Source: Alphaproteobacteria bacterium (lineage in GTDB: Bacteria; Pseudomonadota; Alphaproteobacteria; Rs-D84). From it: 64,000 bases of DNA. Below the pieces are notes generated by a model. The model was not told the DNA's origin and made no database searches. It saw only the letters and a list, made by a program, of their open reading frames with translations. The translations under genes were made by a program, and so were the position numbers. The stretch spans positions 1 through 64,000 of the forward strand of contig SUUQ01000004.1 in assembly GCA_015062445.1 (NCBI GenBank), given 5' to 3'. This document shows positions 3,990 to 42,131 of the stretch, in pieces; positions within the stretch are counted from its first letter, which is position 1, and each line of letters starts with the position of its first letter.

Positions 3990-4746
3990 GAAAATGCTCT
4001 CGTGCAGTTTTTGTATTCTTGACCTGGTCCGTGGCATTGCGGCCATTATCAACCAAATCCAACGCACCATAATATGCAATCAGCATCGGATCGTATGAAT
4101 TTGTACTGGATATCCAACGATCTGTGCCAGAATTAGGACTGCCGTATTTATCAAGGACACTTTGCCAGAAATATAATATCTTGTTCTCGCGCTGTTTGGC
4201 AAATTTTTCGGCCGCACCTTCGATTTCGTTAACATCGTTATTATAAACAACACGCCAGACACGGTTGTCGGTCGCATTACTGGTAAAATATACAACAATC
4301 GTTTCGCCCGTGTTCTCTCGAACCAAATGCACCTGGGACACATATAATAAACCACGATTGCGAGCCAAGCTGTTTATACATTTTTCCAGTTCAGTCGGTA
4401 TAACAATACCTTGTTGACGACACTCGTAATCCAAATTATTCCGCCAGTCTGGATGAATTGTATATATTATGCCATTGTGATTGCGGGGGGCATATAAACC
4501 GTTGGTTTTGAAAAACAAGCTTTGAATATCTTCGAATGACATCCCCAGCATGATGCCAGCAATATCAAACGAGCCAACCGATGCAATGGTGGCATCGCTG
4601 TTTAATTCAACATCTTTGGGTAAAATGTCGGAATAATTGCTGTCCACAATGGCAAAGTCGTTAAAGTCAAATGTGTCAGCCAACCCACATGTGCAAAAAC
4701 ATACAGATAATATTAACAACGAAAATCTTAAAACACGTTTCAACAT
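3967..4746 (-). CDS. Secreted protein of unknown function
   Basis: 259 aa beginning MLKRVLRFSLLILSVCFC, a clear signal peptide with a plausible cleavage after CGLA. The mature part has no motif I recognise. It contains scattered Cys (DYECRQQG, EKCINSL) and is predicted periplasmic. It is the third gene after two VirB8-like genes and overlaps yraN. Operon membership suggests expression with the membrane proteins upstream; the function is not assigned. Confidence 0.7.
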   Translation of the reverse strand: MLKRVLRFSLLILSVCFCTCGLADTFDFNDFAIVDSNYSDILPKDVELNSDATIASVGSFDIAGIMLGMSFEDIQSLFFKTNGLYAPRNHNGIIYTIHPDWRNNLDYECRQQGIVIPTELEKCINSLARNRGLLYVSQVHLVRENTGETIVVYFTSNATDNRVWRVVYNNDVNEIEGAAEKFAKQRENKILYFWQSVLDKYGSPNSGTDRWISSTNSYDPMLIAYYGALDLVDNGRNATDQVKNTKTAREHFHAKPYAF

Positions 4747-38281: not shown

Positions 38282-38758
38282 TTATTTTTTCTTGCAAACT
38301 TTCTTTGCAACTGCTTTCTTTGCAGCTGGTTTTTTTGCAGCTGGTTTTTTAACTGCAACTTTTTTTACAGCAACTGCTTTCTTCGCAACTGGTTTTTTTG
38401 CCGCAACTTTTTTTACAGCAACTGCTTTCTTCGCAACTGGTTTTTTTGCCGCAACTTTTTTTACAGCAACTGCTTTCTTTGCAGCTGGTTTTTTTGCCGC
38501 AACTTTTTTTACAGCAACTGCTTTCTTTGCAGCTGGTTTTTTTGCCGCAACTTTTTTTACAGCAACTGCTTTCTTGGCAGCTGGTTTTTTTGCTGCAACT
38601 TTTTTTACAGCAACTGCTTTCTTTGCAGCTGGCTTTTTTGCTTCAACTTTTTTTACAGCGACTGCTTTCTTCGCTGCTGGCTTTTTTGCTGCTGGTTTTT
38701 TTACTTCTACTTTTTTTGCAGCTTCTTTTTTGCGTGGTCTTAAAAATGGAAATGCCAT
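38282..38758 (-). CDS. Histone H1-like Lys/Ala/Pro-rich DNA-binding protein
   Basis: 158 aa with an AGGAGAG site. After MAFPFLRPRKKEAAKK the protein is built of about seven 16-residue repeats (KKAVAVKKVAAKKPAA) encoded by a 48-bp tandem repeat at ~38340-38700. Such H1-like tails compact DNA in several bacteria. It sits between the scaffold and capsid genes of the phage cluster, an unusual place, so it may condense DNA in the particle or be a host nucleoid protein that has entered the cluster. The opposite strand also reads open (Phe/Ala/Thr-rich) but has no coding features. Confidence 0.85.
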   Translation of the reverse strand: MAFPFLRPRKKEAAKKVEVKKPAAKKPAAKKAVAVKKVEAKKPAAKKAVAVKKVAAKKPAAKKAVAVKKVAAKKPAAKKAVAVKKVAAKKPAAKKAVAVKKVAAKKPVAKKAVAVKKVAAKKPVAKKAVAVKKVAVKKPAAKKPAAKKAVAKKVCKKK

Positions 38759-41475: not shown

Positions 41476-41721
41476 TTAATCGCGTTCAGGTGCAGGTGTA
41501 TCAATAAACTTGGTAAAGTCTTGAATTTTTGCACCTGTGGACGATAAAATCTTGGAAATACTGTTGGTTGACGGCCATCTTGGTTGGCCTTCTTTGGACC
41601 AACGTTTGCTTTTGTTAAACGTTGTCGGGTCCAATCCGCTGCACTTTGCCAGACCAGAACAAGACATACCGTGTTCAGTCGCAAAGCGCTCAATCGCACG
41701 CCAGACATCATCATGTGTCAT
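41476..41721 (-). CDS. HTH domain of an S24-type repressor without the peptidase part
   Basis: 81 aa from the ATG at 41721, with a GGGAGAG site. HDDVWRAIERFATEHGMSCSGLAKCSGLDPTTFNKSKR and RWPSTNSISKIL have the features of the N-terminal DNA-binding half of alphaproteobacterial S24 repressors. The protein stops about ten residues later (PAPERD), so the C-terminal peptidase/dimerisation half is absent. It may be a natural short regulator, since a terminator and its own promoter and operator frame it. Confidence 0.8.
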   Translation of the reverse strand: MTHDDVWRAIERFATEHGMSCSGLAKCSGLDPTTFNKSKRWSKEGQPRWPSTNSISKILSSTGAKIQDFTKFIDTPAPERD

Positions 41722-41815: not shown

Positions 41816-41901
41816 TAAGTGCCATTTCCTAGGAAAATCGTGATAAATGTGGTGGTCATATAAAAAAATCACAAATACAAAAATTTTTTTTGACAAAAGA
41901 C

Positions 41902-41930
41902 TTGACAAATCATTTTTTGTATACTATATT
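41902..41930 (+). promoter_or_regulatory. Promoter of the candidate small RNA
   Basis: TTGACA (41902-41907), 17 bp, TATATT (41925-41930), a near-consensus sigma70 promoter in an otherwise gene-free stretch. Confidence 0.7.
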
Positions 41931-41936
41931 CGAATC

Positions 41937-42131
41937 GTCGAAGGGACAAAACCCGATGACCAGATGTAAAAATCTGAATGGGAACCAGAGGTTCAGACTC
42001 CCTCCTACATTCTCTCTCCTCTGGACTCTGGCTCCCGCCCCTTTTTGTAGTTTAGAGTGTCCAATTTCTTTTTCTCCTTTCCTTCCTTTCGGGACACTCG
42101 GAAATACCGCCGGAAACGGCGGTGTTTTTCT
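41937..42131 (+). ncRNA. Candidate ~195-nt structured small RNA with pyrimidine-rich loops
   Basis: Three stems follow the promoter. Stem 1: GGGA-a-CCAGAG-g-TTCAGA (41980-41997) pairs with TCTGGACTCTGG-c-TCCC (42020-42036), with a 22-nt pyrimidine-rich loop. Stem 2: GAGTGTCC (42055-42062) with GGACACTC (42092-42099), with a 29-nt pyrimidine-rich loop. Stem 3: ACCGCCG-GAAA-CGGCGGT (42106-42123) plus T5 is an intrinsic terminator. Both loops hold CTCC-type anti-Shine-Dalgarno motifs, as in some known regulatory RNAs of alphaproteobacteria and Firmicutes. No match to 6S, SRP, RNase P or tmRNA was seen. The overlapping reading frame has no ribosome site. Confidence 0.6.

Follow-up and report, generated by a model that had tools for sequence, protein, structure and literature searches.

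NfeR1 (alpha-r14) of Rhizobiales is a 123-nt RNA that carries ultraconserved, unpaired anti-Shine-Dalgarno (anti-SD) motifs on variable stems; it is Hfq-independent and silences mRNAs by covering their initiation region (PMC10746234). In Listeria, LhrC uses redundant CU-rich loop sites to bind the SD region of its targets, and the chaperone is dispensable (PMC4132741). Phages and prophages also encode sRNAs, among them ipeX, DicF, AgvB and svsR, which rewire host post-transcriptional control and sometimes affect envelope proteins (PMC12197685, PMC12803456). Here, we describe a predicted RNA from Rs-D84, the order of uncultured, genome-reduced gut Alphaproteobacteria to which Enterousia belongs (PMC12306168). 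We consider it probable, from sequence analysis, that this RNA is an Hfq-independent, trans-acting sRNA of the Rs-D84/Candidatus Enterousia family that masks ribosome-binding sites (RBSs), and that copies of its loop in phages are mimics.

The window, which is the whole 64,000-nucleotide stretch of DNA analyzed here, is part of a 1.05-Mb genome; it also encodes a lysine/alanine-repeat (KKPAAKKAVA) protein resembling histone H1 (38282-38758, reverse strand). Among the named relatives with the same sRNA locus are MAGs assigned to Candidatus Enterousia, from the guts of ruminants, horses and other animals; other relatives carry only Rickettsiales or Alphaproteobacteria as a name. An Hfq-dependent class of sRNA calls for Hfq in the organism, and Hfq (PF17209) was absent from all six genomes tested (G000 and five relatives), with positive controls. 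E. coli-type ProQ and Hfq were also not found by phmmer in G000 and G003.

The sRNA gene is placed between the 3′ end of priA, which is convergent, and a divergent gene for an 81-aa helix-turn-helix (HTH) protein. An earlier note on this DNA had described a near-consensus promoter, a pair of long hairpins whose loops measure 22 and 29 nt, and a terminator capped by GAAA, in a region without a plausible ORF; all of these elements were recovered. On the forward strand, a TTGACA −35 box (41902-41907) and a TATATT −10 box (41925-41930) are separated by a 17-nt spacer and match 11 of 12 consensus positions. The −35 box is near-invariant in an alignment of 33 copies, and relatives have a conserved TGTATTAYATT at the −10 element. 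A second TTGACA (41890-41895), in tandem with the −35 box and conserved in the same 33-genome alignment, is a possible operator or second −35. Promoter, terminator and conservation together delimit a predicted transcript of about 193 nt (41937-42129, with an inferred start site), which would begin with a weakly supported short hairpin (41937-41960; GTC/GAC and GGG/CCC). Hairpin 1 (41980-42036) pairs 41980-41997 with 42020-42036 around a loop of exactly 22 nt (41998-42019), CTCCCTCCTACATTCTCTCTCC, also written CUCCCUCCUACAUUCUCUCUCC. Hairpin 2 (42055-42099) pairs 42055-42062 with 42092-42099 and presents a loop of exactly 29 nt (42063-42091) with the conserved core UUUCUUUUUCUCCUUUCCUUCCUUUC. 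The intrinsic terminator, ACCGCCG-GAAA-CGGCGGT (42106-42123), is followed by T5 within a T-run that extends to 42129. G is absent from loop 1 and from the 26-nt core of loop 2, and the loops are predicted to be unstructured for this reason. The region folds with a z-score of −4.9 (41902-42131) or −3.6 (41938-42131), and no shuffled sequence folded as well. These features are those of an sRNA locus that appears to have its own promoter and terminator.

A protein-coding reading was rejected, given that the overlapping ORFs have no Pfam match, that indels among homologues are not multiples of three and that no ORF is conserved. The same observations weigh against a small protein gene, and a cis-acting leader or attenuator of a neighboring gene fares no better: two phage copies described below (L347 and L058) do lie directly 5′ of ORFs, but the host copy ends in a terminator of its own and faces the 3′ end of priA, and its downstream neighbor varies among relatives. 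We regard this explanation, in either form, as very improbable.

We then asked how the locus is conserved. When the locus was used as a plain DNA query, with no constraint on the loops, 32 of the 34 other genomes of its genus, Candidatus Enterousia, matched strongly, and beyond the genus nothing matched convincingly. Among the 33 copies that were aligned, loop 1 never varies and loop 2 hardly does, with 32 identical rows and one copy with a 1-nt length change, whereas the linkers and stems vary. Across three stems, 98.1% of cells are paired compared to 93.0% in shuffles, and there are 42 two-sided changes compared to 8.4, a value reached by none of 500 shuffles. This signal was lost when the pairing partners were slid. 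Hairpin 2 has compensatory changes at four of its eight pairs, and the terminator stem has changed on both sides in relatives. For the 5′ hairpin, 95% of cells are paired and three pairs have two-sided changes, but a control slid by +3 scores higher for covariation. The earlier note had named conservation of a protein rather than of RNA stems as the pattern that would speak against an sRNA. We saw no coding signature; the loops are far better conserved than the stems, and the stems covary. Conserved, unpaired pyrimidine loops on variable, covarying stems are the arrangement predicted for an anti-SD-loop sRNA.

Searching with the loop-1 22-mer and allowing up to two mismatches, we found it in 167 of 201 Rs-D84 genomes. 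These 167 belong to a single family (f1) and to 12 genera; among the matches listed, all had no mismatch even though two were allowed. Other genera have entirely different stem and linker sequences, yet they keep loop 1 and the loop-2 core, the latter with length variants. Because this set was recovered with the exact loop-1 pattern, its loop-1 identity is largely by construction; the loop-2 core was not selected for. A covariance model identified two diverged relatives outside the family (G038 and G036), which keep the core AUUCUCUCUCC or UUUUCUCUCUCC. Samples from the class and phylum outside the order gave nothing above a reversed-pattern control. As a rule, each genome has a single chromosomal copy; most of the apparent second copies in some genomes seem to be duplicates at contig ends or the product of mixed bins, save for a phage-like fragment. 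In G036, which belongs to another family of the order, a chromosomal hairpin near a ruvB-like gene (L348) has the variant loop TTCCCTCCTTATTTTCTCTCTCC on an unrelated stem and may be a diverged orthologue of the sRNA.

The divergent gene (41479-41721, reverse strand) encodes a Cro/C1-type HTH protein with a weak match to HTH_26, and its linkage to the sRNA is genus-wide and is also seen in the family. It was found in divergent orientation at most sRNA loci (145 sources, in which about 30 genomes appear twice, gave 115 matches), and GGAGAGAGAA is often present in its RBS. The 81-aa protein is a candidate regulator of the sRNA, a candidate target or both: it would probably control the tandem-TTGACA promoter, and its gene may itself be repressed by the RNA. 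HTH autoregulation as a strictly conserved target was rejected, the complement to the loop being only 4-11 nt and not conserved.

The reverse complement of loop 1 reads GGAGAGAGA-AUG-UAGGAGGGAG, which corresponds to an SD sequence, spacer and start codon. Complements of 10-11 nt are located mostly at translation starts in G000 and G003, and the genes include those for malate/lactate dehydrogenase-like proteins (both species), signal-peptide proteins and, in G003, an HTH paralogue/orthologue. No complement longer than 11 nt was found beyond the RNA's own locus in these two genomes. The G003 search spanned both contigs, rRNA included; in G000, 72 kb of contig C5 read as N and any targets there lie outside the view. 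Long invariant loops could imply a single invariant partner, such as a purine-rich sRNA or a stable RNA, in which case the gene would be a sponge or be sponged. The 11-nt ceiling argues against such a partner in both genomes and led us to reject rRNA or another stable RNA in G003; we judge pairing with another RNA of this kind improbable.

Complementarity to mRNAs was examined over 1946 translation initiation regions (TIRs) from three genomes, of which one is partial. Loop 1 was matched over at least 10 nt at 15 genes, compared to 1.5 in dinucleotide shuffles (P < 0.001) and 2.5 in mononucleotide shuffles (P = 0.011); these and the following P values are indicative only, since several tests were made on related data with gene calls from a simple script. 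The enrichment is due to the 3′ half of the loop (13 genes versus 0.6), and the 5′ half shows none at these RBSs, though it is equally invariant in hosts. Loop 2 is modestly enriched in the same regions (68 genes versus 32 in shuffles, P of about 0.04), and complements of at least 9 nt are found in both species for 26 of 633 ortholog pairs compared to 7.6 in shuffles (P = 0.013). The top pairs include what we take to be EF-Tu, enolase, HU, thioredoxin and DnaA. Exact complementarity at single genes, the HTH gene included, is not strictly conserved between species, and in one genome the duplex energy of loop 1 was no better than that of shuffles (50/60). Together, these results bear out the anti-SD-like reading of the earlier note in that predicted complementarity to TIRs is above chance for both loops across the three genomes.

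In the mechanism that we propose, two hairpins would display long pyrimidine loops. Loop 1, chiefly through its 3′ half ACAUUCUCUCUCC, would pair with translation starts resembling GGAGAGAGA-AUG, and loop 2 with strong SD sequences of the AAAGGAGAAA type. The CUCCUUU of loop 2 resembles the 3′ tail of 16S rRNA; the 16S 3′ end was not found in the G000 assembly. Pairing would mask the RBS and start codon and reduce translation of a set of mRNAs, which would include several for predicted exported proteins. Further points count against an anti-SD sRNA: a G-free loop containing CUCC resembles an anti-SD sequence by composition, and the invariance of all 22 nt exceeds what SD pairing alone would need. 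The earlier note had proposed a regulatory RNA acting on many mRNAs. This reading is supported by loop conservation, covariation, RBS enrichment, the lack of an Rfam family and the non-coding character of the locus, with transcription and an action on many mRNAs as its predicted parts.

The exact loop-1 pattern is also present in IMG/VR contigs. Three of these (L149, L152 and L153) contain the host HTH gene, which marks them as host-type loci, and they are probably either bacterial sequences misclassified as viral or the flanks of prophages. A 36-kb contig (L154) has genes for a tail protein and a Holliday junction resolvase; its RNA has a TTGACA-17-TATAAT promoter and an 11-bp hairpin bearing loop 1, then a T-run. 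A second contig of 31 kb (L151) encodes an Erf-like annealing protein, ParB/methyltransferase and PAPS reductase, and shares its metagenome number with L152, one of the host-type contigs. The third, L150, is a 231-kb contig called phage on its IMG/VR classification and size only, with no PHROG match in the stretch seen. It carries two tandem RNAs (4030-4660, reverse strand) with near-consensus or consensus promoters. The first, RNA-A, combines the two types of loop (TTTCTCCTTTCCTTCCTTTC and CCCTTTCCTACATTCTCTCTCC), set on new stems and in reversed order, with loop 2 first, and the second has the exact loop 1. Two further copies have phage-like surroundings. In a genome from another family of the order, the L347 hairpin follows a host-like tandem TTGACA, and a gene for the large subunit of terminase lies directly 3′ of the hairpin. 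L058, a small contig that encodes HNH endonucleases, was binned with an Enterousia MAG, and its loop copy is just 5′ of an ORF. Phage carriers of the same loop or a clear variant are the tail-protein phage, the Erf phage, the 231-kb phage and, probably, these two. Three of the phage RNAs have consensus or near-consensus promoters. INPHARED phages gave only a chance-level match, and short-pattern viral matches in which no proper stem enclosed the loop (L243-L255) were set aside as chance.

The stems of the phage copies have no evident sequence likeness to each other or to the host. Since only the loop is kept in phages, the loop is likely to be the functional part and the stem its presenter, and the same loop on unrelated stems suggests mimicry of the host sRNA. 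A DNA-level site common to host and phages, for attachment, recombination or packaging, could also lie in a hairpin by chance, and short host-phage identity flanked by inverted repeats is typical of att sites. However, the identity stops at the loop, the stems differ and covary, the carriers are unrelated phages, one phage carries the loop twice, and loop 2 as well, under separate promoters, and no insertion into the loop was found among the host loci examined. We give a DNA site very little credence. Under the mimicry reading, phages of Rs-D84 bacteria would use the loop, mounted on unrelated stems, to mimic the sRNA and enter its network, and they could thereby lower envelope proteins, excluding other phages, or redirect host translation. 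We see an even chance that the full proposal is correct: that unrelated phages, one of 231 kb, have fitted the host's exact targeting loop onto stems of their own, express it, several from strong promoters, and redirect host translation in an Hfq-free bacterium, with a clade-specific sRNA network as the common target of mimicry.

The main rival is a protein that reads loop 1, because the 5′ half never varies among hosts and yet shows no enrichment at RBSs. Here, loop 1 would be the site for a sequence-specific RNA-binding protein, the host RNA a scaffold or regulator, and the phage copies would titrate the protein. Invariance of all 22 unpaired bases, the use of the same loop on any stem in phages and one phage RNA that is little beyond a loop-1 hairpin and its own terminator would all fit such a site. 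The RBS enrichment of the 3′ half argues against it, as do L150 RNA-A, L347 and L348, in which the 5′ half of the loop is altered but the SD/AUG-complementary 3′ part is kept. We know of no candidate protein, and we consider this explanation unlikely, though the least so of the alternatives. For the RBS-masking sRNA, what the sequences show is the gene anatomy, loop invariance, covariation, genus-wide HTH linkage, absence of Hfq in six genomes, RBS enrichment and phage copies; its transcription, pairing in vivo and repression, the role of the HTH protein, and the phages' host range and benefit are inferred.

The locus matches no Rfam family at the gathering score, which answers a question raised by the earlier note. 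A lax search gave sub-threshold resemblances only, BjrC1505 being the sole alphaproteobacterial sRNA family among them at 15 bits. BjrC1505 and RNAI are of similar size and have pyrimidine-rich hairpins, but their 15 and 22 bits fall short of the respective gathering scores, 50 and 47 (E-values of 1.7 and 0.045 on a small stretch), and membership was rejected. 6S RNA was also rejected, with no RF00013 match in the genome or at the sRNA locus. The Rs-D84 sRNA family merits an Rfam entry of its own. It is a probable global RNA regulator for a genome-reduced, Hfq-less, uncultured gut lineage and a very clean example of conserved loops on stems that are free to change. In phages the loop alone is kept, which amounts to a natural experiment on which part of an sRNA matters. 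Phage takeover of host translation control through a copied targeting loop becomes testable, and the loop may tag phage contigs to the Rs-D84 host family.

Compared to known phage sRNAs, the proposed mimicry is of a different kind: AgvB imitates the targets that a host sRNA acts on, whereas phages of Rs-D84 appear to copy the targeting loop itself, in several unrelated phages and on unrelated stems. We found no known phage sRNA that copies a host sRNA loop in the literature searched, the coverage of which is incomplete. LhrC and the UCCC-loop sRNAs RsaE and FsrA resemble the Rs-D84 RNA in directing CU-rich loops at SD regions. LhrC, however, is from a different phylum, has short CUCCC...UUUU motifs and occurs in five copies per genome, whereas the Rs-D84 RNA usually has one copy and much longer invariant loops. 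Membership in alpha-r14 was rejected both on the motif and on hairpin number. The alpha-r14 RNAs have three hairpins with an identical 9-nt CCUCCUCCC, which is absent from both Rs-D84 loops; the Rs-D84 RNA has two long-loop hairpins whose loops differ, one being of 22 nt and the other having a 26-nt core, plus a terminator and the weakly supported 5′ hairpin. What it has in common with NfeR1/alpha-r14 is the overall design, both being small alphaproteobacterial RNAs with several hairpins, anti-SD loops and variable stems.
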